Assembly (NCBI RefSeq): GCF_900187265.1
Contig: NZ_LT906450.1
Span: 744,001-808,000 of the forward strand
Length of the DNA stretch: 64,000 bases
Origin: Rhodococcus rhodochrous
GTDB lineage: Bacteria > Actinomycetota > Actinomycetes > Mycobacteriales > Mycobacteriaceae
Direction: 5' to 3'
The notes under the pieces are model-generated. The model saw only the letters and a list, made by a program, of their open reading frames with translations. It had not been told where the DNA came from and did not search any database. Of the stretch, positions 2,801 through 60,818 are shown in pieces (position 1 is the stretch's first letter; each line of letters begins with the position of its first letter). A program made the translations under genes and the position numbers.

Positions 2801-2862
2801 CTTCGAGTCTCGTACGAACCGATCACGGGCCCCTCCGGCCCCCCTAGTACGGAAGTTGAGTG

Positions 2863-4254
2863 ATGACCGACCGTTCCAGCCTTGTCGCCGATGACGCGGG
2901 GAGGTCGGAGGGCAACTCGCAAGGAGACGTCTTCGACCTCGTCGGTATCGGTTTCGGCCCCTCGAACCTGGCGCTCGCGATCGCTGTCGAGGAGCACAAC
3001 ACCGACAACCCCTCCTCGGCGATCCGGGCACGATTCTTCGAACGTCAGTCGGCCTTCGCCTGGCACCCGGGCATGCTGCTCGAGGGCGCCACGATGCAGA
3101 TCGCGTTTCCCAAGGATCTGGTCACCTTCCGTAACCCCACGAGCTCGTACAGCTTCTTCTCCTACCTGCACGACCGTGGCCGTCTCGTGGACTTCGTCAA
3201 CCACCAGACGTTCTTCCCCACGCGTCACGAGTTCCAGGACTACCTGCAGTGGGCGGCCACGCGCGTCGACGCCGATGTCCGCTACGGAACCGAGGTCGTC
3301 TCGGTCGAGACCGTGCGCAACCACAACGGGATCGCCGACCTGTTCGCCGTGCGGACCGCCGACGGTGCCGTCGTGTACGCGCACAGCGTCGTGGTCGGAG
3401 TCGGACTGCGTGCCCGGCTCCCGAAGTGGGCGGTCGCGTCTGCCCGCTGCTTCCACAACCACCACTTCCTCTTCCACATCGAGGACATGCCGGAGCCGCA
3501 GCACCAGCGCTTCGTGGTGGTCGGCGCAGGGCAGAGCGCTGCCGAGGTCGTGCAGTACCTGCACACGCACTACCCGCAGGCCGAGGTCCACAACGTCTTC
3601 AACCGCTTCGGGTACAGCCCCGCCGACGACAGCCCGTACGCGAACCGCATCTTCGACCCGCAGGTCGTCGACGAGCTGCACGCGGCCCCGCTGTCCGAGC
3701 GTGAGCGTCTGCTCGCTCTGCACCGCAGCACCAACTACTCGGTCGTCTCGCCCGAACTCATCGAGGCGCTCTACGCGACCGAATACCGCGAACGGGTGAG
3801 CGGTCGTCGCCGCCTGTTCATGCGGCGTGCCTCGGAAGTCGTGTCGGCGATCGAGAGCGACGGTGGAGTCACCGTCGAGATCCGCGACAATCTCGAAGGC
3901 GACAGCGAGACACTCGAGTGCGACGCGGTGGTCCTCGCGACAGGCTTCGAGCCCGCACCCCTCGCGCCGCTGCTGGGCGATCTCGCCCCCGAGACGCCCG
4001 TCCTGTCCGTCGCCCGCGACTACCGTCTGCCGCTGCCGGAGAACGTCACGGCCGACGTCTACCTGCAGGGCGGAACCGAGAAGACACACGGTCTGACCGC
4101 GTCGTTGCTGTCCAATGCAGCGATCCGCGCGGGTGAGATCCTCACCTCGATCGTCGAACGCCGAGAGCTCCGTCTGCCCGGAGCAGGGGGAGGAATCGAT
4201 GAGCTTGGTAGGATATCGGACCATCACACCTACGCAACAAGTGAGGCGAGATGA
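2863..4254 (+). CDS. L-ornithine/L-lysine N-monooxygenase, hydroxamate siderophore biosynthesis
   Basis: 463-residue class B flavin monooxygenase of the SidA/PvdA/IucD family. It uses FAD, NADPH and O2 to hydroxylate the side-chain amine of ornithine or lysine, the first step to a hydroxamate iron ligand. Visible motifs are the FAD site [12 protein letters not shown] (about 28), the family block [22 protein letters not shown], the NADPH site [11 protein letters not shown] (about 218) and the C-terminal VLATGFEP (about 358). Ornithine is more likely than lysine by analogy with other rhodococcal siderophores (inference). The start ATG at 2863 has GGAAG upstream; GTG at 2860 is an alternative. 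The stop overlaps the MbtH start by four bases (ATGA). An iron box precedes it. It is about 37 kb from the NRPS genes that would use its product. Confidence 0.93.
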
Positions 4255-28058: not shown

Positions 28059-29087
28059 GTGGTTCGCGCACAACCGATACTGACCCCGCTCACCGAAGCG
28101 GCGATCTTCCTCGTCGTCACCGTCGACGAGGGTGCAGAGGACACCGTGCGGGATCTGCTCGAAGATCTCTCGGGCCTGCGCCGCTCGGTCGGTTTCCGCA
28201 TCCCGGAGGGCGGCCTGTCGGTCGTCACCGGCATCGGCTCGGACATGTGGGACCGGCTGTTCGACGGTCCCCGCCCTGCCGAACTGCACCCGTTCGTCCC
28301 GCTCGACGGCGGTCGGCACCAGGCACCCTCGACCCCCGGCGACCTGCTGTTCCATCTCCGCGCGTCGACGATGGACCTGTGCTTCGAACTCGCCGCGAAG
28401 ATCAACGATCGGCTGCGTGGAGTGGCCCGGGTCGTCGACGAGACCCACGGCTTCCGCTATTTCGAACGCCGCGACCTGCTCGGCTTCGTCGACGGAACCG
28501 AGAACCCCGAGGACGACGAGGCCGTCGACGCGGCCCTGGTCTCCGACGAGGATCCGGACTTCGCCGGTGGTAGCTACGTCATCGTCCAGAAGTACCTGCA
28601 CGACCTCGCGTCGTGGAACTCGCTGACGGTGGAGGAGCAGGAGCGGGCGATCGGCCGGACCAAGCTCGACGACATCGAACTCGACGACGAGACCAAGCCC
28701 GCGAATTCGCACGTCGCGCTGAACGTGATCGTCGACGAGAACGGGGTCGAGCAGCAGATCGTGCGCGCGAACATGCCGTTCGGCAGCTTCGGCGCCGACG
28801 AGTTCGGCACCTACTTCATCGGTTACTCGGCCACCCCGGAGGTGACCGAGCAGATGCTGCGCAACATGTTCCTGGGCAGCCCACCCGGCAACACCGACCG
28901 CATCCTGGACTTCTCCACCGCGGTGACGGGCTCGCTGTTCTTCTGCCCCTCGCTGGAGTTCCTCGAAGATCTTCCGCCGTCACCGGCGGATATTCCCTCC
29001 CACGAAGATTCGAGTGCCTCGACCGCCGGCCGGCCGGCCGACGGATCACTCGGAATTGGCGCTCTGCGAAGGAGTTCGACGCTGTGA
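28059..29087 (+). CDS. dypB: Dye-decolourising peroxidase (DypB type), encapsulin cargo
   Basis: 342 residues, haem peroxidase that oxidises dyes, phenolics and lignin model compounds with H2O2. The distal Asp motif is GFVDGTENPEDDEA (about 143-156). The proximal haem His is in NSHVAL (about 217). Arg and Asn of the distal pocket are in VRANMPFGSFG (about 235-237). PFGSFGADEFGTYFIGYSATP is a family block. The C-terminus, after a Ser/Asp-rich linker, ends with SLGIGALRRSSTL, which resembles the encapsulin cargo-loading peptide SLGIGSL. Its stop overlaps the encapsulin start (GTGA), so the two are coupled. Confidence 0.95.
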   Translation: MVRAQPILTPLTEAAIFLVVTVDEGAEDTVRDLLEDLSGLRRSVGFRIPEGGLSVVTGIGSDMWDRLFDGPRPAELHPFVPLDGGRHQAPSTPGDLLFHLRASTMDLCFELAAKINDRLRGVARVVDETHGFRYFERRDLLGFVDGTENPEDDEAVDAALVSDEDPDFAGGSYVIVQKYLHDLASWNSLTVEEQERAIGRTKLDDIELDDETKPANSHVALNVIVDENGVEQQIVRANMPFGSFGADEFGTYFIGYSATPEVTEQMLRNMFLGSPPGNTDRILDFSTAVTGSLFFCPSLEFLEDLPPSPADIPSHEDSSASTAGRPADGSLGIGALRRSSTL

Positions 29088-29902
29088 ACAATCTGTATCG
29101 CGACCTCGCCCCGATTTCCGAGGCAGCATGGACCGAGATCGAGGAGGAGGCCGCGCGCACCTTCGAGCGGCACGTCGCCGGACGCACCGTCGTCGACTTC
29201 TCCGGACCGCACGGCACCGACTTCGCAGCGGTGGGTCTCGGCCGCACCCGCGAGATCGAGCCCCCGGCCGCCGGAGTGCGGGCACGCCAGCACCGCGTCG
29301 CGCCGGTCGTCGAACTGCGGGTGCCGTTCACGCTGTCGCGCGAGGAGATCGAGAGCGTCGAGCGCGGTTCCCGCGACATCGACCTCGACCCCGTCAAGGA
29401 AGCGGCCCGCCAGATCGCCTTCGCCGAGGACCGCGCGATCTTCGAGGGCTACGCGGCCGCCGGTATCGAGGGCATCCGGGCGTCGTCGTCGAACCCGTCC
29501 CTGCAGCTGCCCGAGGATCCCCGCGATTTCCCGGAGATCATCAGCCAGGCGCTGTCACAGCTGCGACTGGCGGGTGTGGGCGGCCCGTACTCGATCCTGC
29601 TCGGCGCCGACGAGTACACCAAGGTCAGCGAGACCTCCGATCACGGCTATCCGATCCGCGAACAGCTGCGCCGCCTCATCGACGGCGACCTCATCTGGGC
29701 CCCGGCGATCGACGGTGCGTTCGTCCTGACCACGCGCGGCGGCGACTACGACCTGCAGGTCGGTCAGGACCTGTCGATCGGCTACCTCTCGCACGACGCC
29801 GAGACGGTGAACCTGTACTTCCAGGAGTCGTTCACCTTCCTCGTCTACACCGGCGAGGCCTCGGTTCCGCTGGTGCCGACGACGCTCGAACTCCCGCACT
29901 GA
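29084..29902 (+). CDS. Encapsulin shell protein, family 1 (linocin M18-like)
   Basis: 272 residues, HK97-fold protein that assembles into a small icosahedral protein compartment (60 subunits in family 1). The N-terminus NNLYRDLAPISEAAWTEIEEEAARTFERHVAGRTVVDFSGPHG is diagnostic. LGRTREIEPPAAGVRARQHRVAPVVELRVPFTLSREEIESVERG and AFAEDRAIFEGYAAAGIEGI follow, and the end is LYFQESFTFLVYTGEAS. It packages the coupled DypB peroxidase. The usual length is about 265. The GTG start overlaps dypB by four bases. Confidence 0.96.
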   Translation: MNNLYRDLAPISEAAWTEIEEEAARTFERHVAGRTVVDFSGPHGTDFAAVGLGRTREIEPPAAGVRARQHRVAPVVELRVPFTLSREEIESVERGSRDIDLDPVKEAARQIAFAEDRAIFEGYAAAGIEGIRASSSNPSLQLPEDPRDFPEIISQALSQLRLAGVGGPYSILLGADEYTKVSETSDHGYPIREQLRRLIDGDLIWAPAIDGAFVLTTRGGDYDLQVGQDLSIGYLSHDAETVNLYFQESFTFLVYTGEASVPLVPTTLELPH

Positions 29903-35327: not shown

Positions 35328-35369
35328 TCAATAAGTACGAAACACGAACCACGAATCGAGGTGGCGCAC

Positions 35370-37295
35370 ATGATGCAGCCCCCACCCACACTCGGCGGCA
35401 AGCCGGGCGGCCGCGGCGGGATCGACAAGAAAGATCTCGAGCAGCTCCGCGAAGCCCCGGTGAGCCTGCGCCGTATCGGCGCCCTCTTCGCGCCCTACCG
35501 GTGGAAGATCACCCTCGTCGTCGCGCTCATCATCGCCTCATCGGTGATCTCCCTCGCGACGCCCTTCCTCGTCCGCGCCGTCATCGACGACGCCATCCCG
35601 CACCAGAACGTGAGCCTGCTGCTGTGGGCGGTCGGCGGCATGCTGGCCGTCACCGTCGCGAGCTCGCTCCTGTCCGTCGTCCAGACCTGGATCTCCACGA
35701 CCGTCGGCCAGAACGTCATGCACGGTCTGCGCACCCGGGTCTTCTCCCACCTGCAGCGACAGTCGCTGAACTTCTTCACCCGCACCCGCGGTGGCGAGAT
35801 CCAGTCGCGGTTGACCAACGACATCGGCGGCATGCAGTCCGTGGTCACCAACACCGCGACCTCGCTGGCGTCCAACGTCACCACCGTCGTCGGCACGGCG
35901 ATCGCCATGGCGGTCCTCAGCTGGCGACTGGCCCTGCTCTCCCTGATCGTGCTCCCGCCGGCCATCTGGCTCACCCGCCGGGTCGCACTCATGCGCCGCG
36001 CCGTCACCGCCCGTCAGCAGCGCCGCCTCGCCGACATGCAGTCGCAGATCGACGAAGGACTGTCGGTCAGCGGTGTGCTGCTCGTCAAGACGCTGGGCAC
36101 CGGCCCGGCACTGTCCGACAAGTTCGCCCGCACGTCGGAGGAGCTGGCCGATCTCGAGGTGCACGCGCAGTTGTCCGGCCGCTGGCGCATGGCCACGATG
36201 AACATCGTCTTCGCGGCGATCCCCGCGGTCCTCTATCTCGTCGCCGGCCTGCCGGCCACCTCGGGCGGCATGACGATCGGCACCCTGGTGGCGTTCACCG
36301 GACTGCAGGGCGCGCTGTTCCGGCCGCTGATGAGCCTGCTCGACGTCGGTGTCTCCGTCACCAGCTCACTGGCCCTGTTCAGCCGCATCTTCGAATACCT
36401 CGACCTTCCCGTCGACATCGACGACCCGCGCGATCCGGTGGCCGTCGACCCGGCGACCGTCGCCGGCCGGGTGCTGTTCGAGAACGTGAGCTTCCGCTAC
36501 GAAGGAGCTCACCGCAACGCGCTCGACGGGATCGACCTCGACGTCCCGGCGGGAGCGCAGGTCGCGCTCGTCGGCGAGACCGGATCGGGCAAGACCACGC
36601 TCGGCTCGCTCGTCGCACGACTGTACGACCCGGTCGACGGACGCGTGAGCATCGACGGCGTCGACCTGCGCGACATGCGGCTCGCCGATCTCGCCGGACT
36701 GGTCGGCGTGGTCTCGCAGGAGACCTACCTCCTCCATGCGACCGTCCGGGAGAACCTGCGCTACGCGAAGCCCGACGCGACCGACGACGAGATCGAGGCC
36801 GCGGCCCGCGCCGCCCACATCCACGACCTGATCGTCTCGCTGCCCGACGGCTACGACACCGTCGTCGGTGCCCGCGGACACCGCTTCTCCGGTGGCGAGA
36901 AGCAGCGCCTGGCGATCGCACGTACGCTCCTGCGCGACCCGCGTGTCCTCGTGCTCGACGAGGCGACCAGTGCCCTCGACAACGACACCGAGCACGCCGT
37001 GCAGCAGGCCCTCGACGCCGCGCGCAGCGGTCGTACGACCATCACCATCGCGCACCGGCTCTCGACCGTGCGCAACGCCGACGAGATCGTGGTCCTCGAC
37101 CGGGGCCGCATCGTCGAACGCGGAACGCACGACGAACTCGTCGCCCGCGGTGGCCGCTATGCGACCCTCGCCGCCCGTGCAGAGCGAGGTGAGACCGGCG
37201 CCGCCGTGCGGAGCGAGGTCGATACCGCCGCCGTGCGGAGCGAGATCAGTCCTTCAGAGTGGCCGCGAGAGCGCGCCGCAGTTCGTTCCGGCTGA
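35370..37295 (+). CDS. ABC exporter half-transporter (type IV, MsbA/LmrA-like)
   Basis: 641 residues with fused membrane and ATPase domains; it should work as a homodimer. Six transmembrane helices occupy about 35-320 (e.g. [39 protein letters not shown]). The ATPase has Walker [10 protein letters not shown] (about 405), Q-loop [17 protein letters not shown], signature [16 protein letters not shown], Walker [14 protein letters not shown] and switch His IAHRLST. The start at 35370 has GAGGTGG upstream. The conserved part ends at about 37190. A further 35 residues carry three AAVRSE-like units and run 50 bp past the stop of the convergent DHB-ligase gene. Being next to the siderophore cluster, it could export the product, but the MarR-type operator suggests drug efflux. 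Confidence 0.93.
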
Positions 37296-38895
37296 TCTTG
37301 CCCACACCCGTGACGGGGAAGGCGCCGACGAACTGCACCTTGTCGGGGATCTTGTACTCGGCCAGCCCTCGCTCTCTCAGGAACTTCTTGAGCGCGAGGG
37401 CCTTCGGCGCTTCACCCTCGGTGACGACGAAGGCGCAGGTGCGCTCGCCGAGATACTTGTCGGGCATCGACACCACCGCCGCATCGAGCACGGCCGGGTG
37501 CGCGATCAGATGGTTCTCGACCTCCTCGGCCGCGATCTTCTCGCCACCACGATTGATCTGGTCCTTCGCGCGTCCCTCGACGACGATGTAACCGTGCTCG
37601 GTGAGCCGGACGATGTCGCCGGTGCGGTAGAAACCGTCCGGGGTGAACGCCGTCGAATTGTGTTCCGGCGCGTTGTAATAACCCCGGATCGTGTACGGGC
37701 CGCGGGTGAGCAGGTGACCGGTGGTGCCCACGGGCACGGGTTCGTCCGCGTCGTCGACGACGCGGATCTCGTCGTCGGCACTGATCGGCCGGCCCTGGGT
37801 GGTGACGATGGTGTCCTCGTCGTCGTCGAGCCGGGTGTAGTTGACGAGACCCTCCGCCATACCGAAGACCTGTTGCAGCGTGCAGCCGAGTTCGGGGCGA
37901 ACGCGTTTGGCAGCCTCGGCCGGGAACTTCGCGCCACCGACCTGCAGCACCTGGAGCGACGACAGGTCGCGCTCGGTGCGGGCCCGCGCCGACAGCCACG
38001 CCTGCGCGAGGGGCGGGACGAGCGACGCCATCGTCACGCCCTCGCTCTCGATCAGGGCGAACGCGGTGTCGGGGCTCGGATCCGGAGCGAGGACGACGGT
38101 GCCGCCGGCGTGCAGCACACCGAGGATGCCCGGTGAACTCATCGGGAAGTTGTGCGCCGCCGGCAACGCGACCAACATGCGGGTGTTCTCGTCCACCCCG
38201 CAGATCATCGCGGACTCGCGCACCGAGTACAGATAGTCGGCGTGGGTGCGGGGGATGAGCTTCGACGTCCCGGTGGTGCCGCCCGACAACTGCAGGAAGG
38301 CAACGCTTTCGGAGTCGTTCTCCGTGATCGGCGCGGGTTCGCGGTCGCGCAGCGAGTCGAGCGCGGTGAACTCCTCGGCCTCACCGGCGACCACGACCGC
38401 CGGCGGATTCTCCATCTCGGAGGTGACCTGCCGGGCGAGCACGCGGTAGTCGAATCCGCCGTGTTCGTCGGCGATCACGTACGCCGCGGCGTCGCTGAAC
38501 CGGCAGAAGTAACCGATTTCCGACGCGCGGTGTGCGGGCAGGGAGAAGACGGGGAGCGCGCCGAGCCGGAAGACCGCGAAGAGCACCTCGGTGTACTCGA
38601 CGATGTTCGGCAACTGCAGGACGACACGGTCGCCCTTGCGTACCCCGAGGTCGGCGAGACCGGCGGCGATGCGGGCCGAGGCGTCGTCGAGTTCGCGGTA
38701 GGTGATGCTCCGCCGAGTGGCCGTCGCGTCGTGTCCGACGACGGCGGTGCGATCGGCGAACCGGGCGGCGCGGGCCGGGAGGAACTCGCCGAAGGTCTCG
38801 CTCGTCCAGTAACCGGCTGCGCGATACCGCTCGGCGAACTCCTCGGGGTAGCGGGCGGTGTCGACGAGCGGGGTGCGCTCGAAACCGGTTGTCAC
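37246..38895 (-). CDS. dhbE: 2,3-Dihydroxybenzoate-AMP ligase (EntE/DhbE)
   Basis: 549 residues, stand-alone adenylation enzyme that activates 2,3-dihydroxybenzoate as acyl-AMP and loads it on an aryl carrier protein. [24 protein letters not shown] is the P-loop (about 190). [11 protein letters not shown] and [15 protein letters not shown] carry the residues that in DhbE favour DHB (the second Ser of SSPG, and Val in GLVNYT). Salicylate ligases have Cys and Leu there, so DHB is predicted. Adenylation continues [27 protein letters not shown] and the catalytic Lys in [15 protein letters not shown] at 38895 has GAAAGGAAC upstream. It is last in an entC-entA-entE operon. Confidence 0.96.
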
Positions 38896-38939
38896 GGAAC
38901 GGTTCCTTTCGGGATGCGGATCGATGTGGGGTCGGTCGG

Positions 38940-39722
38940 TCAGGCACGGAGGGTGGCGCCGCCGTCGATGTACAGCGCCTGCATGGTGATGTGACGGGCA
39001 CGGTCGGACAGCAGGAATTCGATGGCCTCGGCGATGTCGGCGGGCTCGGCGATGCGGCCGAGGGGGATGCCCACCTTGAACTGCGACGGATCGCCCTCGA
39101 TGGCGCTGCGGGCGCCGGCGTCGTCGTTCGGATCCTCCCACAGCGAGCGCTGCATGGCGGTGTCTGTGGAGCCCGGCGCGACGATGTTGGCGCGGATCCC
39201 GTACTGCGCCAGTTCGAGTCCGAGGATCCGGACGATCATCGTGGCGGCGGCCTTGGACGATCCGTAGGCACCCATGCCCATCCGCGGCACGCCCGCGGAA
39301 TTCGATCCGACGACGACGATCGAACCCGACCGCCGCTCCCGCATGGCCCGTCCGACCGAACGCAGGACCGACAGCAGGCCGGTGACGTTGACGTCGTACA
39401 TGTGCTGCCAGTCCTCGGGATCGGAGTCGAGCACCGATCCCGTGGTGAAGACACCGGCGACGTGCGCGAGATGCTCGATCGGTCCGTGCTCGGATTCGAT
39501 GCTCTCGACGACGTGGGCGACAGCATCGTGGTCGCGGATGTCGACGGGGTAGGTGGGGACGGGGCCGCCGAGCAACGCGGCGGTCTTGCAGAGTCCTTCG
39601 GCGTCGCGGTCGGCGAGCACGAGACGGTGACCGGCGCGCGCGAGGGTCTCGGCGGTCGCGCGGCCGATGCCCTGCGCGGCCCCGACGACGAGCGTGACGG
39701 GGGAGGGTGCGGTATCGGTCAT
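38940..39722 (-). CDS. dhbA: 2,3-Dihydro-2,3-dihydroxybenzoate dehydrogenase (EntA/DhbA)
   Basis: 260 residues, NAD-dependent SDR that aromatises 2,3-dihydro-2,3-DHB to 2,3-dihydroxybenzoate. The cofactor site is [17 protein letters not shown]. The EntA-type pattern [23 protein letters not shown] holds the Ser, Tyr and Lys. [14 protein letters not shown] and the end [16 protein letters not shown] match EntA. The start overlaps the entC-like stop (ATGA), showing coupling. Its substrate needs an isochorismatase, which is not in this window. Confidence 0.95.
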
Positions 39723-40861
39723 CGGAGTACTCCCAGTGCATCGAGGACGGTGCCGAACTTGACGGTCGTCTCGGCCAGTTCGTCGGCGGGGTCGGAGTCG
39801 GCGACGATACCGCCCCCGGCGTACGCCGTGAGCCCGACACCGTCGGCGTCGAGGACGGCGCAGCGGATGGTGACCAGCCACTCGCCGTCGCCCGCGGCGT
39901 CGCACCATCCGAGCGCACCGGCGTAGAAGCCCCGGTCGCCCTCGGTGGCGAGGATCAGATCGCGGGCCGCGGCGGTCGGCGTGCCGCAGATCGCGGGAGT
40001 GGGGTGCACTGCGAGTGCGAGATCGAGGGCCGTGACACCCGGATCGCGCAGGCGACCCTCGATGGGAGTGCCGAGATGCCACAGCTGGCGCGTGCTCGTC
40101 ACGGTCGGCTGCTCGGGGATGTCGAGCTCGACGCACAACGGTTCGAGAGCGGTGCGGATCGCATCGATCACGTGCGCGTGCTCGGCGAGGTTCTTCGCGG
40201 AACCGGCGAGCCTGTCGGCCGTCGCCCGATCGATCTCGGGGTCGCGGTGGCGCGGTGCGGATCCAGCGAGGGGGTGGGCGGTGACCCGATCGCCGCGTCG
40301 GCGCACGAGCACCTCCGGGCTCGACCCCACCAGGTGGCGGCCCGTCCACGCGCCGCCGGCGGACGTGAGGTCGACGAGGAAGCCGTTGTGCAGCGGATCG
40401 TTTCGCGTGAGAGCGACGAGAAGGTCGTGCGGGGTGACGGGCCGGTCTGCGCGCAGGGCGAGTGTCCGGGCCAGCACCACCTTGAGCAGGTCGCTGTCGT
40501 CCGAGCGGAGCAGCCGCAGTACGGTCTCGACCCGATCGATGTGTTCGCCTTCCGACGGCAGTGCGCCCGTGATCGTGATCGGGGGCAGCTCGGCGGCCGG
40601 TGCGTCGTAGTGCGCGGGGACGTGGCGGAGTGTGTCCGGAGCGGTCAGTGCGGCCGGACCGTCGGGTGCGAAGGGCAGTGCTCCGACGATCGCGGCGACC
40701 TGTCCGGTGCGCAGGGCGTCGGCTGCGGAGGACGCGCGATCGAAGCGTCCGCTCACGCCTTCGGCGACCACCGTGCCGTGCGGGCGGGACAGGACGAACG
40801 GGTGCGCGACGGGCCGCTCGGCCCGGTCGGTAGCGGTTGCGCCGAGGACCGGCACTTGCAT
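39719..40861 (-). CDS. dhbC: Isochorismate synthase (EntC/DhbC)
   Basis: 380 residues, chorismate-utilising (MST) enzyme, Mg-dependent conversion of chorismate to isochorismate, the first committed step to 2,3-DHB. Core motifs: [12 protein letters not shown] with the general-base Lys, [82 protein letters not shown] and [27 protein letters not shown]. The ATG has GAAGG seven bases upstream. It is first in the left-going dhbC-A-E operon and divergent from NRPS1 across an iron box. Confidence 0.95.
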
Positions 40862-40933: not shown

Positions 40934-40952
40934 TACGGTAAGCCTAACCTTT
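40934..40952. promoter_or_regulatory. IdeR/DmdR iron box shared by dhbC operon and NRPS1
   Basis: TACGGTAAGCCTAACCTTT; its reverse complement AAAGGTTAGGCTTACCGTA matches 14 of 19 positions of TTAGGTTAGGCTAACCTAA. It lies 73 bp upstream of dhbC and 88 bp upstream of NRPS1, where one repressor could silence both divergent units. Confidence 0.82.
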
Positions 40953-41039
40953 GGTACTGTGCCCTCCGGCGCCGCAGCGCGCACATCAGCGGATTCCGTT
41001 CCCAGTCAATCGTTTCGATCGAAGGAAAGAGGATCTCCA

Positions 41040-48824
<7,785 letters not shown>

Positions 48825-48852: not shown

Positions 48853-48871
48853 TTCGGTTAGCCTAACCAAT
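48853..48871 (+). promoter_or_regulatory. IdeR/DmdR iron box before the siderophore-binding lipoprotein
   Basis: TTCGGTTAGCCTAACCAAT matches 15 of 19 consensus positions; the core GGTTAG-C-CTAACC is a perfect palindrome. It lies 48 bp before the binding-protein start, in the 94-bp gap after NRPS1. Confidence 0.85.
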
Positions 48872-48918: not shown

Positions 48919-49947
48919 ATGCGCGTTCTGGAACGCAAGCGCGCGCGGGGCGCCGTGGCGCTCGGCGCGGCAGCTCTGCTGGCCGTCGGACTTGTGGGAT
49001 GTTCGAGCGACGGTGACAGCAGCAGTGCCGAGAGCGGCACCGACTCCGTCGCGACGCGCACCTTCGAAGCGCAGAACGGCAGCATCGAGATCCCGGCCGA
49101 CCCGCAGCGGATCGTGTCCTGCGGTTACGCGACCCTCCCGCTCATCCAGGCCGGCGCGAACCTCGCCGCCGTGTGCGAGTGGAGCCGCGAGCTCGACAAC
49201 ATGGACGAGGAGACCCTGGCCGCCTACGAGGCACTCCCGAAGGTCGCCCCCGACGGAGCAGTGGCGGAGCTCAACTACGAGGCCGTCACCGCCGCCGATC
49301 CCGACCTCATCATCATGGGTGTCCCGGCCCGCGTGAAGGAGCAGGTCGACGTGGCAAAGCTCGAGGCGCTCGCCCCGGTGGTCTTCGTCGGACTCACCGT
49401 TCCGGGTGAGTGGCGCGAACTCGGTGAGCAGTACGCCGATGCCGCGAACGTCAGCGACTCCTACGGGGAGTTCAAGGAGGAGTACGAGGCTCGCGCTGCC
49501 GAGATCGCCGACAAGTACGCCGGCTCGCTCGGGGGCCTGAAGTTCGCCGGCGTCTGCGGTGTGTGCGGTACCGAGCCCGGTGAGTTCTCCCGCGAGTACG
49601 CCTCGTCGTACACCACCAACCTGTTCGACGATCTCGGACTCGACTTCTACGGTGAGCCGACCGATCCCGAAGAGGTTCACTCCGAGTACCTGTCGGTCGA
49701 GCAGCTGCCCGAGAACCTCGGCGAGGCCGACGTGATCGTCTACGGTGTCGAGGCCGACGGTTCGCTGCCGCCCGAGCTGGAGGAACTGTTCGCCTCCCCG
49801 CTATGGCAGGATCTGCCCGCAGTGAAGGCCGGCAACCTCGTCGCCGTCAAGCACTCCAGTGCAGCGACCTACGAAACCGCTCTGCTGGCACTCGATTCCA
49901 TCGATGCCGAGTTGGCGAAGCTTCCTGCGAGCCAGAACCAGGAGTAG
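48919..49947 (+). CDS. Ferric-siderophore substrate-binding lipoprotein (FepB/FhuD family)
   Basis: 342 residues. A lipoprotein signal (RGAVALGAAALLAVGLVGCSS, Cys28) anchors it outside the membrane. Class III periplasmic-binding fold: IEIPADPQRIVSCGYATLPLIQAGANLAAVCEW, then DLIIMGVPARVKEQVDVAKLEALAPVVFVGL with the long bridging helix region DSYGEFKEEYEARAAEIADKYAG, then a C-terminal lobe ending LLALDSIDAELAKLPAS. It should capture the Fe-siderophore for an ABC importer. No permease or ATPase gene is in the window. It has its own iron box and GGGAG ribosome site, and a strong hairpin follows it, splitting the NRPS genes. Confidence 0.92.
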   Translation: MRVLERKRARGAVALGAAALLAVGLVGCSSDGDSSSAESGTDSVATRTFEAQNGSIEIPADPQRIVSCGYATLPLIQAGANLAAVCEWSRELDNMDEETLAAYEALPKVAPDGAVAELNYEAVTAADPDLIIMGVPARVKEQVDVAKLEALAPVVFVGLTVPGEWRELGEQYADAANVSDSYGEFKEEYEARAAEIADKYAGSLGGLKFAGVCGVCGTEPGEFSREYASSYTTNLFDDLGLDFYGEPTDPEEVHSEYLSVEQLPENLGEADVIVYGVEADGSLPPELEELFASPLWQDLPAVKAGNLVAVKHSSAATYETALLALDSIDAELAKLPASQNQE

Positions 49948-50015: not shown

Positions 50016-50058
50016 GTCGTTCGTGCCCGAATTGACCGTCTTACAACGAAAGCGACAG

Positions 50059-53000
50059 ATGACCCGTTCCACTGCGCTCGAAGACATCGTTCCGCTCTCG
50101 CCGCTGCAACAGGGCCTGCTCTACCTGAGTACCGTTGCGGCGCCGACCGGCTCGGTATCCGACAACACGGGTACGGCCGACCCCGACGCCTACACGGTGC
50201 AATCGGTGGTACGACTGTCGGGCGCGGTCGACGAGGGGCGGATGGCGGCCTCCGCCCAGGCGCTGCTCGATCGTCATCCGGCGCTGCGCACGTGCTTCCG
50301 TCCCCGAAAGGACGGCCGTACGGCGGGTCTCGTCGTGTCGGGCGTGGAGAATCCCTGGCGTAGCGAGGATCTGTCGGGTCTCGAACGCGCCGAGGCGGAA
50401 CGCCGGCTCGAGCAGATCGTCGAGGACGACCTGCACGACTGGTTCGACCTCACGCAACCGCCGCTCGTGCGCTGGACCTTCGTGCGGTTCGGCGCCGACG
50501 AGGTGCGCCTGCTGCTCACCGCCCACCACATCGTCGTCGACGGCTGGTCGTCGCCGATCCTGGTGCGCGAGCTGCTCGAGATCTACGCTGCCGGGGGATC
50601 GGCGTCGGGTCTGCCGTCCGTACGCCCCTACCGCGACTACCTCGCATGGCTCGGGCGCCAGGACCACGAGGCCGCCCGGTCGCTGTGGCGCGAGGCGCTC
50701 GACGGTGTGAGCGAACCGTCGCTCGTGGCACCGCCGGGCGCGACCCGCTCGTCGGAACGCTGCGGCGAACTCGACGTGCCGGTCCCCGACGGGCTCGGCG
50801 CGAAACTCGCGGAGCTCACCCGCGCAAGCGGGGTCACCCTCAACACGGTGCTGCAGACCGCGTGGGCGATGCTCCTGTCCGGTCTGCTCGGCCGCGGCGA
50901 CATCGTCTTCGGCGCGACGGTCTCCGGCCGCCCGCCGGAACTCGCCGGCGTGGAATCGATGGTCGGGCTGTTCATCAACACCGTGCCGGTGCGGGTGCGG
51001 CTCGATCCCGCCGCGACCGTCACCGACCTGCTGCGACGCGTACAGCTCGAGCAGTCGCGCACCGTCGACCACCAGTATCTGGGCCTGTCCGACGTGCAGC
51101 GCGCCGTCGGGATCGGTGAACTGTTCGACACCCTCACCGTGTTCGAGAGCTACCCCGTCGACCGCGACGCCCTCGAGCGAGCCCAGCGCGCCGGGGGAGT
51201 GACGATCACCGGCGTCGACGGACGCGACGCCACCAACTATCCGCTGGTCCTCACGGCCGGCATGTCCGACCGGCTCGTCGTCAAGCTCGACCACCGTCCG
51301 TCGCTGATCGACGCGGACGAGGCCGCCGCCCTGGGTGCCCGCCTCGTCGCGATCCTCGAGGCCCTGTGTACCCGGCCCGATGCGCCTGTCGCCGACCTCG
51401 ACGTCCTGCCGTCCTCGGAACGGGAACGCATACTGGGCACCTGGTCCACCGCACCCGCGGCACCGTCGACCGGCACCGTCGCCGACCTGCTCGCGCACCG
51501 GTTCACCACCGACACCGACCGACCCGCAGTGGTGTGTGGTGAGCAGGAATCGTCCTTCGGTGAACTCGGCGCGGCCTCGGCACGACTGGCGAGACTGCTC
51601 GTCGACCGCGGCGTGCGACCCGACGAGCGGGTCGGTCTCGCGCTTCCCCGGACCGGCGCCATGGTCGACGCGATCGTCGCCGTCCTCACCGCCGGAGGCG
51701 CCTACCTGCCGCTCGACCCGTCCTATCCCGCCGACCGGCTGAAGCACATGATCACCGACGCCGCACCGCGACTGGTGATCACCACCGAAGCCGTGCGCGC
51801 GAGCCTCGGCGACGTGCTCGACGGCGCCGACGTGCTGGTCCTCGACGCCCCGGACGTCGAGTCCGCACTGTCGGCGCTGCCGTCCGCTCCGCTCAAGGAC
51901 GCGGACCGGCGCGCCCCGCTCCGCCCGGACCATCTGGCCTACGTCGTCTACACCTCCGGTTCCACGGGTCTGCCGAAGGGTGTCGCCGTCACGCACGCCA
52001 ATCTCGCCGACCTGCACGCCGCACAGACCGCCGGGCCCATGCAGGCCGCCGGTCGTGCGCCGCGTGACGGGCAGTGGCACGTCCTGCTCACCTACCCGTT
52101 CGCCTTCGACTCGGCCGTCGCCGCGCTCACCTGGCTCTTCGAAGGCCATGTGCTGCACGTGCTTCCCGACGAGTACCGCGCCGACGTCGACCACATCGTC
52201 GACTACGTGCGCACCCACGGCATCGACTACGTCGACACCGTGCCCGTGCTCATGAACCGCCTGCTCGACGCCGGTCTCCTCGAACCCGGCGGGCACGTCC
52301 CCGCGACCGTCACGGTGGGCGGCGAAGCGGTGAGTGCCGCGCTGTGGCAGCGCCTCGCCGCGAGCGACGTGGTGGCGACGAACTGCTACGGACCCACCGA
52401 GTGCACCGTCGACGCGACCTCTGCGCGCATCGCGGGGGAGACCGTGACGATCGGCGGTCCCACCCCGGGGACGAGCGTGCGGGTCCTGGACCACTGGCTG
52501 CGTCCCGTGCCCACGGGAGTGGCCGGTGAGCTGTACGTTGCCGGAAACGGCGTCACCCGAGGCTATCTCGGCCGGAACGGCCTGACCGCGACGCGTTTCG
52601 TCGCCGATCCGCACGGGCCGGCGGGTGCCCGCATGTACCGCACCGGCGACGTCGTGCGGTGGACGGACGACGGCACACTCGAATACGTCGGGCGCGACGA
52701 CGACCAGGTCAAGATCCGAGGATTCCGCGTGGAACCCGGCGAGATCGAGACCGCGCTCACCGCGCATCCGGCCGTGCGGAACGCCGTGGTGGTCCCGCAC
52801 ACCGACGATCGGGGGACCACCCGCCTCGTCGGGTACATCGTCGGTGACGGACCCGATACCGCCGAGGTGCGGGCCGTGCTCGCCGGCCGGCTGCCGGACT
52901 ACATGGTGCCGGCCGTGCTCGTCGCTCTTCCCGTCCTTCCACTGACGACCAACGGCAAGATCGACCGGAAGGCGTTGCCCGAACCCGACTTCTCGTCGCT

Positions 53001-56000
53001 GGCGGGTGCCGGTGAACCGCGCACCGAGACCGAGCGGACGCTGTGCGCCACCGTCGCCGACGTCCTCGGCCTCGACCGCGTCGGGGTGCACGACGACTTC
53101 TTCGCCCTCGGAGGCGATTCGATCGTCTCCATCCAGCTGGTGTCGCGGTTGCGTGCGGCCGGGCTGCGCGTGACGGCCCGTCAGGTCTTCGAACTGCGTA
53201 CCGCCGCCGCGCTCGCCGCAGCGTGCGAGGCACCCGCCGAGGAGCCCCGGCGAGCCCGGACGGCGGCGACCGGCCCGGTGCCCGTCACGCCGATCGTGCA
53301 CGAATCCCTCGCGTCCGGATCGTTCGACTCGCTGCGCCGGTTCACCCAGTCGCGGGTGCTCGTCGCCCCCGTGGGTCTGCGGGAGGCGGACCTCGTCGCG
53401 GGCGTGCGGGCACTGCTCGCGGCTCACCCGATGCTGCGCTCGCGGTTCACCATCGGCGACTCCGGACCGTCGTGGATCGTGCCCGAGGACCTTCCGGAGG
53501 CCGCGACGCTCGTCCGGCGAGTGGATGTCTCGACCACGGACCAGGTCTCGTGGAGCGACGTCATCGCCGAGGCGTCGGCGGAGGCCGTCGACGCACTCGA
53601 CCCCGAGACCGGGATCATGCTCCGCGTGGTCTTCCTCGACCCGGGACCGCAACAGGCCGGGCGCATCGTCGTCGTCGCGCACCATCTCGTCGTCGACGGC
53701 GTGTCGTGGCGGATCCTGGTGCCCGACCTCGCCGGTGCCGTCGACGCAACCACCCGCGGGGAGACCCCCGCGCCGGAGGACACCGGGACGTCCTTCCGGG
53801 AATGGGCGGAAGCGCTCGTCGAGGCCGCCTCGTCCGAGCGGATCACCGGATCGTGGCCGATCTGGGAATCCGCTCTCGCCGTCGAGGGGGCACCCGCGGT
53901 GGGAAGCCGCCTCCTGGACCCGCAGCGCGACATCGTGTCGACCTCGGCGTCCGTCGAGATCGACGTGCCGATCGACGTCACCGAACGCATCCTCACCACC
54001 GTGCCGTCCGCCCTCGGTATCGGCACCGGCGACGTGCTGCTCGCAGCTCTCGCCCTCGCCGTCACCGACGTCTGCGGCGGATCCGCCCTGCGAGTGCATC
54101 TCGAGGGTCACGGCCGCGAAGAACAGGTCGTGCCCGGCGCCGACCTGTCGCGCACCGTCGGATGGTTCACCTCCCTGTACCCCGTGACGGTCGAACTCGT
54201 TGGAGACCGTGCGCTCGACGGTGGTGATCCGCTCCGGGCCGTCGCCTACGCGACCGAGTCGCTGAAGCGGATCCCCGACAACGGAATCGGATTCGGTCTC
54301 CTGCGCTTCCTCGGCGACGACCGCGACCGCTTCGCCGGCTACCGGGCCCCGGAGGTGATGTTCAACTACCTCGGCCGCATGACCCTCGGCGACACCGCCG
54401 ACGCCGCGTGGTCGGCCGCACCGGAGGTGGCCGCGCTCGGCGGTTCCGTCGACCCGGCCATGCCCCTCGACCACGTCCTCGACGTCAACGCCATCACGGA
54501 GGACGGACCGGACGGACCCGCGCTGTCGGCGGTGTTCACCTACGCCACCGGTGCGCTCGACGCCGATCGCGCCCGCCGGATCGGGCAACGCTGGCTCGCG
54601 GCACTGCGCCTCCTCACCGACACGGTCGCAGATGGCGTTGCCGGTGCCCCCGTGCCGTCGATGCTCACCGCGTCCGGACTGTCCGTCGACGAGGTGCTCG
54701 CGCTGCACGCCGAGAATCCGGACGGCATCGAGGACGTCGTGCCGCTGACACCCCTGCAGCGCGGCATGTACTTCCTGGCCGGACTGGACGAGCCATCGGG
54801 ATCGGGCAGTGTCGCCGAGGGTGTCGATGTCTACACGATGCAGACCGACCTCGCCCTCGACGGTCGCGTCGACGCCCGAACGATGCAGCGCTCGGTGCGT
54901 GCACTCGTCGACCGGCACGCCGTGCTGCGCACCGGATATCGACTCGGCGCAGCGGGCGAACCGATCGGCGTCGTCCGTCGTACCGCCGAACCGCGCTGGG
55001 AGGTCGTCGATCTCGGGGACGTCGAGCCCGGCGAACTCGACACGCGGGTGGCGGAACTGCTCGCCACCGACCGCGCCCGCAGGTTCGATCTCTCGGCCGC
55101 ACCGCTGGTGCGCTTCACGCTGGTGGTCGCGGGACCGTCGCGCGCGCGACTGCTGTTCACGATGCACCACCTCGTCTCCGACGGTTGGTCCACCCCGCTG
55201 CTCGTGCAGGAACTCCTGCAGATCTACGCCGCCGGCGGATCCACCGCCGGACTCGCACCCGTCGCGCCGTTCTCGGACTACCTCGACTGGCTCGGCGAAC
55301 AGGACGTCGCGGCCGGTGTCGAGGTGTGGCGCGAGTTGCTCGACGGTGTGGACGAACCCACCCTCGTCGCGCCGTCCGGCACGGCGCTGCGACCGGAGTT
55401 CCCCGCCGAACTGACGGTCGCCGTGCCGGACGGACTGTCGCGGCGACTCGTCGAGGCGAGCCGCGCATACGGCGTCACGGTCAACGGACTCGTCCGGACC
55501 GCCTGGGGTCTTCTCGTCGGATCGCTCACCGGCAGAACCGATGTCGTCTTCGGGGCGATCGTCTCCGGGCGCGTCCCCGACGTGCCGGGCGTGGAATCGA
55601 TGATCGGCCTGTTCATCAACACCGTCCCGGTGCGCGTCCGCACGCAGGCGGAGGAGTCGATCACCGATCTCGTCACGCGCACGCACGCCACCCAGAACCG
55701 TGTGATGGACCACCAGTACGTGGGTCTCGCCGACATCCAGCGTGCCGTCGGGGTCGGCGAACTGTTCGACACCCTGCTCGTCTTCGAGAACTATCCCGTC
55801 GACCGCGACGCCCTCGACGCGGCGCAGCGGGACGGTGGCGTGCGGGTCGGCTCCGTCGGAGGCTCGGACGCCACGAACTTCCCGCTCGTGCTGGTCGCGG
55901 GACTGGAGGACGAACTGCATCTCGGCCTCGAATACCGGACTGATCTGTTCACCGAGGACGACGCCACCGCACTGGGGGAGAGGCTCGTCCGCATCCTCGA

Positions 56001-59000
56001 TCAGCTCGTCACCGAGAAGCCCAGAACCGTGACGCAACTCGATGTGCTCACGGCCGCCGAACGCGCCGGTCTGCGCAGCGAGTGGTCGACGACCCCCGCG
56101 GCACCGTCGAGCGGTGCGGCGACCGTCGCCGATCTCCTGGCACGGCAGATCACACGTACCCCGCACGCACCCGCGGTGGTCGCCGACGGCACGACACTGT
56201 CGTTCGCGGAACTGGGCCGGCGATCCGCGCGACTCGCGCGGCTCCTCGTCGACGCCGGGGTCGGGCCGGAGACGGTCGTGGGGCTCGCGTTGCCGCGGTC
56301 CGAGCACATGGTCGTCGCGATCGCGGCGGCGATCTCGTCGGGTGGCGTGTACGTACCGATGGATCCGTCCTATCCACAGGATCGACTGGCGCACATAGTG
56401 TCCGATTCGCGTCCGCAGGTGATCGTCACGGTCGCCTCGGTTCTGGGTGGCATCGCCCCCGTCGCAGGCGACACGCGGATCGTGGTGCTCGACGACCCCG
56501 ACCTGCAACTCGACGAATTCTCCACGGCCCCACTGACGGACGCCGACCGGCTCGGAGCGTTGCGCCCGCACAACGGTGTGTACGTCATCTACACCTCCGG
56601 TTCGACCGGACTGCCGAAGGGCGTCGCGGTCACGCACGCGAACCTGCTCAACCTGTTCGAGAGTCACCGCGCGGACCTCTACGTCCCGACCGTCGCGGCG
56701 TCCGGACGCGACTCCGTCGGCGTCGGGCACGCATGGTCGTTCGGCTTCGACGCGTCCTGGCAGCCCACCCTGTGGCTGCTCGACGGACACACGGTGCACG
56801 TCTTCGACGAGGACACCATGCGTGATCCCGAACGGATGGTCGCGTACACGCTCGAACACGAACTCGACTTCCTCGAGGTCACCCCGTCCTTCCTCGACCG
56901 CATGCTCGCGGCGGGACTGTACGAGAGCGGACACCGCCCCGCCTCCGTGGGATTCGGTGGCGAGGCCGTCAATCCGGCGTCGTGGCAGCGACTGCGGGAG
57001 CTCACGGACGGGCGGGCCTTCAACCTCTACGGCCCCACCGAATGCACCGTGGACTCGCTCATCGGGTCGGTCACCGATGCGGACACACCGTGCCTCGGCC
57101 GGGCGGTACACGGTGCCGGCGCCTACGTCCTCGACGCGATGCTCCGGCCCGTGCCGATGGGAGTGGTCGGCGAACTGTACGTCTCCGGTGCCGGCGTTGC
57201 CCGCGGATATCTCGGTCGGCCCGACCTCACGACGGTCCGGTTCGTGCCGAATCCCTTCGCCGACGACGGCAGTCGCATGTACCGCACCGGCGACCTCGTC
57301 CGGCGGGTCCGCGGTGCCGACGGCCGGCCCGTGCTCGAATTCCTCGGGCGCGGCGACGACCAGGTCAAGATCCGCGGCTTCCGGGTCGAACTCGGCGAGG
57401 TGGAGGCCGCGCTGACCGCGGTGCGTGGCGTGCGGGACGCGGTCGTGAACGCACACACCGACACTCGTGGAGTGACGCGTCTGGTCGGCTACGTGACCCC
57501 GGACGGCGACGTCGATCCGGCGGTCGTTCGTGCCACCGTCGCCGAGCGCCTGCCCGACTACATGGTGCCCGCCGTGGTGCTCGTGCTCGACACCTTCCCC
57601 GTCACCGCCAACGGCAAGGTCGACCGGAAGGCGCTACCCGAACCGGACTTCTCGTCGCTGGTCGGCACCAGTGCACCGCGCACCGGCACCGAACGGGTCC
57701 TGGCCGGACTCGTCGCGGACGTGCTCGGACTCGAACGGGTGGGCATCGACGACGACTTCTTCTCCCTCGGCGGCGACTCGATCGTCTCGATCCAGCTCGT
57801 GTCGAAGGTCCGGGCAGAAGGACTGTGGATCACGACCCGTCAGGTGATCGAACTGCGCACCGTCGAGGCACTCGCGGCTGCGATCGACATCGGCAGCGGG
57901 CAGACCCGTCCGGCAGCCGTCGGCGACGCTACGGGCGAGGTGACCGTCACGCCGATCGTGTGGGACACCCTCGAACAGTGGACGGGTCTGTCCCGGTTCT
58001 CGCAGGCGCGACTGCTCGTCGCGCCGGTCGGGGTCACGCTCGACACCCTGCGGACCGCGATCGAGGCGCTCGTGACCGCCCATCCGATGCTGCGCTCGGC
58101 CTTCCGGGTCGACGACGAAGGCCGGCCGTCGTGGACGGTCCCCGAGACCGTGCCCGACCTCACCGGGTCCGTGCGGCGCGTCGACGCCACGGGCCGGGAC
58201 TGGGGCGAGTTGTTCGACGAGGAACGTGAGAACGCCTACGCGGCACTCGATCCCGAGAACGGGATGATGGTGCAGGTCGTGTGGTTCGACTTCGGGCCGC
58301 AGCAGGCCGGACGCGTCCTGATCGTCGTGAACCACCTCGTGGTGGACGGCGTGTCGTGGCGGATCCTCGTCCCCGACCTCGCCGACGCCGTCGAACAGGC
58401 CGAGCGTGGAGAGCCGGTGACCCTGTCGTCGAGCGGCACACCCTTCCGGGTGTGGGCGGACGAACTCGCGAAGGCCGCCCGCTCGGAGCGGATCACCGCG
58501 TCGTGGTCGGCCTGGCAGCGCGCCGTCGACGCCGATGAACCGATGCTCGGTTCGCGCCCGCTCGACCCGGCACGCGACACCGTCTTCTCGACCCGGTCGA
58601 CCCGCGTGCACCTGCCCGTCGACGTCACCGAACGGGTCCTGGCCGCGGACGTCGTCGACGACATCCTGCTCTCGGCCCTCGCCGTCGCGGTGGCGTCGGT
58701 TCGGGGCGGCGACCAGGTCCGTATCGATCTCGAGGGACACGGTCGGGAGGAGCAGGTGGTCCCCGGTGCCGACCTGTCGCGCACCGTCGGCTGGTTCACG
58801 TCGATGTATCCGGTGACGGTGGATCTGTCGGAGGTCGACGTGGCGTCCGCGTCCCGGGACACCGACGCCGCGGGCGCGGCGCTGCGCGCGGTGGCACGCG
58901 CGTCGCGGGAACGACCCGACAACGGCATCGGCTTCGGCCTGCTGCGTCGGCTGAACCCGGACTTCGGCCACCGCTTCGCCCGGTACGTGCCGCCGGCCGT

Positions 59001-59295
59001 CGTCTTCAACTACCTCGGCCGGCTCACGCTCGGAGAGGCATCCGGCAGCCCGTGGTCGGGCGCACCGGGCGCCGCCGCGATCGGCGGGTCGGTGGATCCG
59101 GACATGCCGCTCGACCACGTCCTGCAGGTGGACGCGATCACCGAGGACACCCCGGACGGCGCGGTTCTAGAATGCGAGTTCGCCGCCGCAGCGGACGTGG
59201 TCGATGCGGACACGCTCGCCGAGATCGCGCGGATCTGGCAGGACACGGTGCAGGTCGTCGTCGCCGCGAGAGAACTGACGGGCACCGCTCGATAG
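50059..59295 (+). CDS. Siderophore NRPS 2, C-A-T-E-C-A-T-E, no thioesterase
   Basis: 3,078 residues. The start [17 protein letters not shown] is an acceptor docking/C-domain head. C3 has HHIVVDGWS (156). A3 (about 470-980) specificity positions read D-S-A-D-T-G-C-V-D-K, close to A2. T3 GGDSIVS (1017). E3 (about 1075-1530) [11 protein letters not shown]4 begins [24 protein letters not shown] (1703). A4 (about 2015-2530) reads D-A-Q-E-G-G-L-V-D-K, almost identical to A1. T4 GGDSIVS. E4 (about 2630-3078) has [10 protein letters not shown]: the first His is Asn but the catalytic second His and Asp remain. The protein ends right after E4 ([13 protein letters not shown]) with no thioesterase, reductase or docking tail. 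ATG at 50059 has a weak ribosome site; GTG at 50023 is an alternative. Confidence 0.95.
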
Positions 59296-59561: not shown

Positions 59562-60818
59562 GTGATCGTGGCCGTCTTCGAGAAGCTCCTCATCGACATC
59601 GACCCGCTGCGGACCAGCCGCGAGTTCCGGTACCTGTTCACCGCACGCGTCGTCTCCCTGTTCGGTCTCGGTTTCCTCATCGTGGCCGTGCCCGTGCAGG
59701 TCTACCAGCTCACCGGCTCGACGGCGCAGGTCGCCGCCGTCTCCGCGGTGATCGGTGTGACCACCTTCGGGGCCACCTTCGCGGGCGGGGTGCTCGCCGA
59801 CCGGTACGACCGGCGGAACGTCATCGCCCTCGCTCGCGGCACCGCAGGCGTCGCCTTCGCGCTGCTGGCGATCAACGCGTTCCTGCCCGAACCGCAGATG
59901 TGGGCGATCTACGTGCTCGCCGTCGTCGACGGCATCGCGGGCGGGATCTCGGCGACCGCGCTCATGGCCGTCACCCCCAGCCTGATCCCGCGCGACAAGC
60001 TCGCTGCGGCCGGCGCGCTCATGGCGCTGACCGCCGACCTCGGCTCCATGATCGGCCCGGCGCTCGGCGGTGTCGTCATCGCCGCCGGTGGTGTGGGCGT
60101 GGCCTACGCGCTCGCGGCGTTCACCACCGCGATCACCACCTTCTGCATCACCCGCCTGCCGTCGCTGCCCCCGACGCATGTCGCGGAGGAGTCACCGCTG
60201 AAGTCTGTGGTGTCGGGCTTCCGGTACGCGGCACACAACCGCGTGGTGGGGCAGGTGCTGATCGTCGGGTTCCTCGCGATGCTGCTGTCCGGCTGGGCCG
60301 TGCTGATCCCGGAGTTCGCCGACGAGGTGCTCGGCGTCGGACCGTCGGTGGTGGGCCTGCTCTACACCGCGCCCGCAGTCGGAGCCGTGATCGGCTCGCT
60401 GACCAGCGGCTGGACCGGCTCGATCCGCCGGTACGGGCTGGTGGTGTACCTGCTCATGGCGGTCTCCGCCGCCGGTCTGGTGGGTGCCGGCGCGACCGGC
60501 GTCCTCGCCGTCGTGCTGCTCGGCCTCGCCGCGCACGGTTTCGGCGACTCGCTCGCGGACGTCGTGCGGTACGCGACCGTCCAGCGCAACACCTCCGACG
60601 AGTACCGCGGACGGATCGCGGCCGTGTGGGGCGCGCAGGTGACGGCCGGTACCTCCGTCGGTGCGGTCGCGGCGGGCGTCGTGGCCTCGCTGGTGCCGAT
60701 CTCGATGGCCCTGACCGTCTACGGCGTGGCCGGTGTGGTGATCATCGCGATCATGTTCGTCGCGACCCCGACGCTGCGGCGGTTCGAGGACGCGGGCGAT
60801 CTCGAAGCTGTGGGCTGA
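59562..60818 (+). CDS. MFS exporter, EntS-like siderophore exporter
   Basis: 418 residues with 12 transmembrane segments. The start DIDPLRTSREFRYLFTARVVSLFGLGFLIVAVPVQVYQLTGSTAQVAAVS is the pattern of the EntS/MFS_3 exporters that release catecholate siderophores. GGVLADRYDRRNVIALARG is motif A and SLIPRDKLAAAGALMALTADLGSMIGPALGG matches the family. It is last in the NRPS2-carrier-exporter operon, followed by a strong hairpin. GTG at 59562 lies 4 bp after the carrier stop with a weak ribosome site. Confidence 0.92.
   Translation: MIVAVFEKLLIDIDPLRTSREFRYLFTARVVSLFGLGFLIVAVPVQVYQLTGSTAQVAAVSAVIGVTTFGATFAGGVLADRYDRRNVIALARGTAGVAFALLAINAFLPEPQMWAIYVLAVVDGIAGGISATALMAVTPSLIPRDKLAAAGALMALTADLGSMIGPALGGVVIAAGGVGVAYALAAFTTAITTFCITRLPSLPPTHVAEESPLKSVVSGFRYAAHNRVVGQVLIVGFLAMLLSGWAVLIPEFADEVLGVGPSVVGLLYTAPAVGAVIGSLTSGWTGSIRRYGLVVYLLMAVSAAGLVGAGATGVLAVVLLGLAAHGFGDSLADVVRYATVQRNTSDEYRGRIAAVWGAQVTAGTSVGAVAAGVVASLVPISMALTVYGVAGVVIIAIMFVATPTLRRFEDAGDLEAVG

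Follow-up and report, generated by a model that had tools for sequence, protein, structure and literature searches.

The window, by which we mean the whole 64-kb stretch of Rhodococcus rhodochrous DNA that was analysed, carries a nonribosomal peptide synthetase (NRPS) cluster that looks like a catecholate (dihydroxybenzoate) siderophore line (Table 1). NRPS1 and NRPS2 lie on either side of a siderophore-binding protein gene (PBP), and NRPS2 is followed by genes for a stand-alone aryl carrier protein (ArCP) and an MFS exporter. The ArCP gene, which was absent from an earlier note on this DNA, begins 41 bases past the NRPS2 stop, and the best solved relative of its product was the isochorismatase-aryl carrier EntB, matched in the aryl carrier end (3.2e-9). 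The first C domain of NRPS1 was nearest to ObiF1, then to the NRPS C domain 7c1k, EntF, CdaPS1 and VibH. Because the ArCP, the EntC-, EntA- and DhbE-like genes and a starter C domain close to ObiF1, EntF and VibH occur together, the line is read as dihydroxybenzoate-capped and its product as probably at least partly catecholate. An in-frame GTG at 41040, behind a purine-rich stretch, is the likely true start of NRPS1. None of the four isochorismatase-family matches of the genome lies within the window's cluster, while one adjoins a second siderophore-like NRPS pair, cluster B, and the two clusters may thus share a dihydroxybenzoate supply. Upstream of the cluster, at 28613-29902, lies an encapsulin-type protein (PF04454 Linocin_M18).

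Table 1. Features of the siderophore line and associated loci; coordinates here and in the text are positions in the window unless marked genome.
Feature	Position	Strand	Basis or remarks
L-ornithine N-monooxygenase (OrnMO)	2860..4254	+	sole strong PF13434 match genome-wide
ABC transporter adjoining the cluster	35361..37295	+	Pfam; also in L075 and L077
Dihydroxybenzoate-AMP ligase-like (DhbE/EntE)	37246..38936 (start approximate)	-	PF00501; beside the ArCP in L075 and L077
Short-chain dehydrogenase, EntA-like	38940..39718 (start approximate)	-	PF13561
Isochorismate synthase-like, EntC	39719..40861	-	PF00425, 1.3e-68
Iron-box-like site	40934..40952		17/19; between EntC and NRPS1
NRPS1 (modules 1 and 2)	40959..48824	+	starter C-A-T-C-A-T-E, donor-type tail; A codes DAQEGGFVDK, DSEDVGMVDK
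Iron-box-like site	48853..48871		16/19; ahead of the PBP-NRPS2-ArCP-MFS run
Siderophore-binding protein (PBP)	48919..49947	+	PF01497
NRPS2 (modules 3 and 4)	50023..59295	+	C-A-T-E-C-A-T-E; A codes DSADTGCVDK, DAQEGGLVDK
Terminal E domain of NRPS2, protein end	57895..59295 (start approximate)	+	E motifs, solved relatives
Stand-alone ArCP, 73 aa	59336..59557	+	PF00550, 1.5e-10
MFS exporter	59562..60818	+	Pfam
Cluster B, second siderophore-like NRPS pair (L096, L097)	genome ~1228881-1253560 (with isochorismatase-family gene)

Pfam gave four condensation-type, two AMP-binding and two carrier matches in NRPS2, and the domain order was read from their positions together with sequence motifs. Both E motifs, EGHGRE and NYLG, were found in the last domain, whose best solved relatives were chains of bacitracin synthase 3, PvdL, GrsA and TycA (2.5e-40 to 1e-35), and which was also matched by one tyrocidine synthase 2 chain (2.1e-33). 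The protein ends in ...[11 protein letters not shown], 96 residues after the FNYLGR of this domain, and the stop codon TAG stands at 59293-59295; Pfam, motifs and stop codon thus confirmed the claim of the earlier note that the last module is C-A-T-E and that the protein ends right behind its E domain. NRPS1, in contrast, extends 120 residues beyond the FNYLGR-equivalent point and carries the tail [18 protein letters not shown]. A thioesterase (TE) hidden by a frameshift was considered and rejected, as only 40 bases separate the NRPS2 stop from the ArCP gene and the gaps are short in relatives too.

Of 61 genomes searched for the ArCP, 31 had it, including 18/18 of the same genus (the window's own genome counted), and 20 regions were fetched. 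Twelve of these showed the order NRPS2-ArCP-MFS with an E-ended NRPS2, and none of the twelve matched any of three TE domains taken from the window's own genome. The other eight comprised L075 and L077, with no NRPS beside the ArCP, L088, at a contig end, L084 and L085, where a heterobactin-like NRPS with an A-T-TE end precedes the ArCP, and the more distant L083, L086 and L087. A further 17 named loci, 11 of which shared a contig with the regions above, were examined apart from L117 (Streptomyces); these added lines from Prescottella defluvii, R. hoagii, P. equi DSM 20307 and R. wratislaviensis. There was no NRPS2 beside the ArCP in L104 or L106 (the latter at a contig end), and no such line in L116 (5,989 bases). 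This gave 17 orthologous lines in Rhodococcus and Prescottella, made up of the 12 regions, the four named loci and the window.

An E end without a fused TE was found in 17/17 of these lines. The TPSD tail was present in 10/10 NRPS1 ends that lay within the stretches and in 0/17 NRPS2 ends, which bore out the earlier statement that NRPS1 has a donor tail and NRPS2 has none. The gap between NRPS2 and the ArCP gene was 5 to 141 bases in 13/17 lines, and in two more, L108 and L111, it was 41 and 43 bases; in L070 the NRPS2 reading frame is 39 residues longer and overlaps the ArCP gene, still without a release domain. With none of the genome's PF00975 matches inside the cluster, the view that NRPS2 is the true terminus and that the cluster lacks a release domain was likewise supported. 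Judged from its architecture and terminus in the sequence, the terminal E domain is the natural end of a complete NRPS line. Within HHxxxDG the second His, the Asp and the Gly were invariant in 17/17 terminal E domains, and so were the EGHGRE motif and the NY of NYLG. The first His, however, was Asn in 10/17 and Asp in 1/17, with both His residues kept in 6/17. In cross-species identity to the window's copy, the terminal E domains were about as conserved as the internal ones, which suggests selection on the terminal E domain.

An ortholog of the terminal module was present in 13/21 genomes at 58% identity or more. It was not found in the genomes of L075 and L077 (G013 and G012), where the best matches had 41% identity. 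These two loci (L075 being R. phenolicus, the same as L104) retain the dihydroxybenzoate genes and the ArCP, with NRPS1 and NRPS2 missing beside them, and the binding protein gene of L075 directly adjoins that of the ArCP.

The A codes were derived by aligning the A domains to the GrsA positions, and a literature search for six A-domain code strings found no publication giving them. The terminal code, DAQEGGLVDK, was identical in 13/13 lines read. DMEN(L/M)GLINK, which we take to be a hydroxyornithine-type code, occurs in cluster B of the same genome, at a locus of genome G026 and at heterobactin-like loci. When 46 A-domain rows were placed in a maximum-likelihood tree, all four A domains of the line and the DMEN-type A domains formed one clade (100/100) apart from the remaining A domains in the set, with module 1 on a long branch and only loosely placed within the clade. 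All four modules thus probably use basic, ornithine-type residues. Hydroxyornithine as the terminal residue, and with it a cyclic hydroxamate version of the product, is no more than possible on these codes, since the terminal code differs from the hydroxyornithine-type code found elsewhere in the genome.

A possible source of hydroxyornithine is the OrnMO gene, 37 kb from NRPS1. Its PF13434 match (1.8e-105) contrasts with 14 weak ones elsewhere in the genome, and an OrnMO was present in 20/20 genomes searched. Potential users of OrnMO were sought with a heterobactin-like hydroxyornithine A domain as query (E<=1e-105) in 15 genomes, including 11 of the 13 carriers of the line. In 9/11 carriers, all with one OrnMO, every A domain at E<=1e-105 among the candidates scored sits in a window-type cluster, although a diverged A domain could escape because in 6/9 genomes the scoring covered 102 candidates out of 106 to 169. 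The other two carriers, G000 and G026, have a DMEN-type A domain as well; in G026 the OrnMO lies about 5 kb from it, and in the window's own genome the DMENLGLINK A domain of cluster B could be the OrnMO user. As G007 and G013 keep OrnMO without a window-type line and without a match at 1e-105, its retention is no proof of use by the line. The evidence leans towards OrnMO serving the window's siderophore line.

Iron-box-like sites were scored against what we take to be the iron-box consensus. Besides the two sites in the cluster (Table 1), a third, at 2782 and ahead of the OrnMO gene, scored 15/19 and was the weakest of the three; 20 mononucleotide shuffles of the window gave means of 0, 0.05 and 0.1 sites at scores of 17, 16 and 15. 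A box of at least 16/19 precedes PBP-NRPS2 in 12/12 relatives' regions with NRPS2, and a box of at least 15/19 was found at 13/20 OrnMO loci. Genome-wide there were 11 boxes of at least 16/19, as against two for the reversed pattern. These sites suggest that the line would be regulated by iron. Three of the 11 are the NRPS sites (784934, 792853 and 1241200 of the genome), 1398480 and 5095124 were left out, and ten proteins at the remaining six were scanned with Pfam. They comprised binding proteins, FecCD, DUF2470, a methyltransferase, an Amidohydro_2 protein and three without a family, and no TE or alpha/beta hydrolase was among them. The site at genome 4802423 (L140) lies between a siderophore-binding protein gene and the Amidohydro_2 (PF04909) gene.

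This conserved assembly line poses a chemical question, namely how the chain is freed from a C-A-T-E end, and the 17 lines form a natural test series for it. MbtF of mycobactin biosynthesis is a terminal C-A-T-E module too, and Nocardia is a related actinobacterium. In the nocobactin model described in PMC7413640, NbtE (C-A-T-E) adds lysine, which is then epimerised, N-hydroxylated and closed to a caprolactam, a cyclic hydroxamate; the same source finds, in 75/101 genomes, a trimodular Nocardia NRPS whose first and terminal modules have E domains. NbtE thus resembles the window's line, likened here through its published description, in being a siderophore line whose last module is C-A-T-E without a TE. 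However, nocobactin is built with lysine, which closes to a seven-membered ring, and has a cap derived from salicylate and a PKS portion, whereas the window's line has a dihydroxybenzoate cap and ornithine-type codes. An E-ended siderophore line is therefore already in print, and the window's line adds another of that kind.

By analogy with nocobactin, we infer the substrates, the D-configuration and a release by lactam formation as follows. Dihydroxybenzoate would be loaded onto the stand-alone ArCP and joined to the first residue by the starter C domain of NRPS1; the four modules would extend the chain with basic, ornithine-type residues, E domains being present in the last three, and the terminal E domain would turn the last residue D. 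The terminal ornithine or hydroxyornithine would then use its side-chain nitrogen to attack its own thioester and form a six-membered lactam without a TE, a cyclic hydroxamate where the side chain is N-hydroxylated. Release by such a side-chain lactam closure is the reading that we favour, tentatively and at slightly less than an even chance, with a trans-acting hydrolase ranked next. The E end conserved in all 17 lines, the intact E motifs, the single A-domain clade and the distribution of OrnMO argue for lactam closure. Against it, the terminal code is not DMEN(L/M)GLINK and is nearly that of module 1, which is not terminal; the heterobactin-like L084 and L085, whose code is of the DMEN type, have a TE at their end; most terminal E domains have Asn or Asp in place of the first His of HHxxxDG; and OrnMO lies far from NRPS1 and has other possible users, in cluster B and, in G026, in the neighbouring A domain. 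If the terminal residue is hydroxyornithine, the release logic of nocobactin would extend to catecholates.

A discrete hydrolase or type II TE encoded elsewhere could instead free a linear acid, as proposed for CahG in cahuitamycin after coelichelin, a route that we consider possible but less probable. A trans alpha/beta hydrolase has been proposed for the cahuitamycin line, a siderophore-like NRPS without a TE like that of the window, as in coelichelin (PMC4757757). According to that source, however, the chain is released by CahD from a T domain at the end and the candidate hydrolase gene CahG lies inside the cluster, whereas the window's line is E-ended and no hydrolase family was found among the scanned proteins of the cluster and its flanks. 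The pattern G[WYFLHV]SxG[GA] was also absent from all stop-to-stop frames of more than 180 aa in the 34-41, 48.7-50.1 and 59.2-64 kb intervals. Elsewhere in the genome there are candidates, with 17 PF00975 matches, 14 of them above the cut-off and 11/17 in frames of less than 500 aa, but no box of at least 14/19 lay within 1.5 kb of the ten PF00975 loci checked (of the 17 matches). An alpha/beta hydrolase gene does adjoin OrnMO in 15/20 loci, but it ends ahead of the iron-box-like site, and its identity across genomes is 88-100%, more like that of a housekeeping gene. With nocobactin and the hydrolases proposed for cahuitamycin and coelichelin as precedents (PMC7413640, PMC4757757), the assertion of the earlier note that every remaining release route would be unusual was too strong.

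The replaced histidine invites a different explanation, in which the terminal E domain has turned into a release catalyst, by water or side-chain attack, and is no longer an epimerase. The replacement is indeed concentrated at this end of the line, being seen in 11/17 terminal E domains as against 2/20 internal ones and 0/10 NRPS1 ends; the invariance of the remaining E motif residues in 17/17, together with the six lines that keep both His residues, makes this improbable.

That NRPS2 passes its peptide to a further NRPS such as that of cluster B (the NRPS pair at about 1230496-1253560 of the genome) appears more doubtful still. Cluster B has boxes of its own (16/19 at genome 1241200 and 15/19 at 1230477) as well as the DMENLGLINK A domain and the adjoining isochorismatase-family gene. 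However, an ortholog of one probed A domain of cluster B was found in 4/21 genomes among the candidates scored (72 per genome, fewer than are present), compared with 13/21 for the terminal module, and both were found in three genomes (G000, G002 and G004), again among the candidates scored. Since the two distributions differ, such a hand-over is not the rule, and NRPS2 is without the tail that NRPS1 keeps in 10/10 ends inspected. The earlier note had looked to a further iron-boxed NRPS or TE elsewhere in the genome as evidence against a true terminus, and this held in part: cluster B exists, but among the candidates scored no ortholog of the probed A domain turned up in 10/13 carriers of the line, and the six scanned boxes yielded no TE. 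At its own end, cluster B has a carrier domain and no TE. The least probable route is cyclisation of the D-ended chain in trans by a penicillin-binding-protein-type TE of the SurE type, since, although such enzymes work in trans on a C-terminal D residue (PMC11735501) and the genome has seven PF00144 matches, the chemistry reported there is a head-to-tail lactam from an N-terminal L to a C-terminal D residue, which a dihydroxybenzoate cap at the N-terminus should bar, and 7/7 PF00144 loci were neither near the cluster nor accompanied by a box of at least 14/19 within 1.5 kb.

The cluster may also give an orphan siderophore its genes. Among the siderophores of Rhodococcus, heterobactin is described as being of mixed catecholate-hydroxamate type (PMC7502451). 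The heterobactin-like L084 and L085 share with the window the same kind of ArCP directly behind the NRPS; in contrast, they end in A(DMENMGLINK)-T-TE, and the heterobactin-family traits of these loci, namely Gly- and hydroxyornithine-type codes and a terminal TE, are absent from the window's line. PMC5550956 describes the iupS/iupT (rhequibactin) locus of Rhodococcus (Prescottella) equi as a catecholate line with two NRPSs, and P. equi DSM 20307 has, like the window, an orthologous E-ended NRPS2 (L111). We infer that L111 is iupS/iupT, and the rhequibactin locus may be close kin of the window's line. Simple identity with rhequibactin is disfavoured, because in the network of PMC5550956 the rhequibactin family is confined to R. 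equi strains and falls into a group with heterobactin. Rhodobactin, from R. rhodochrous OFS, is a catecholate-hydroxamate siderophore whose gene clusters were still to be identified according to a 2020 review (PMC7502451), and that the window's cluster makes it is a guess.

Taken as a whole, a widespread Rhodococcus/Prescottella family can be pictured, possibly that of rhodobactin and kin of rhequibactin, in which a dihydroxybenzoate-capped, ornithine-type chain would release itself as a D cyclic (hydroxy)ornithine, with OrnMO acting from 37 kb away and one extra C-A-T-E module leading to the same release end in R. zopfii and R. yananensis; in this full form the picture is rather unlikely. The extra module of these two species was observed in L074 and L079 (R. 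zopfii, the same as L105, and R. yananensis, the same as L110), where NRPS2 contains a third C-A-T-E module with the A code DSAD(T/V)GFVDK, and their peptide is therefore probably one residue longer.
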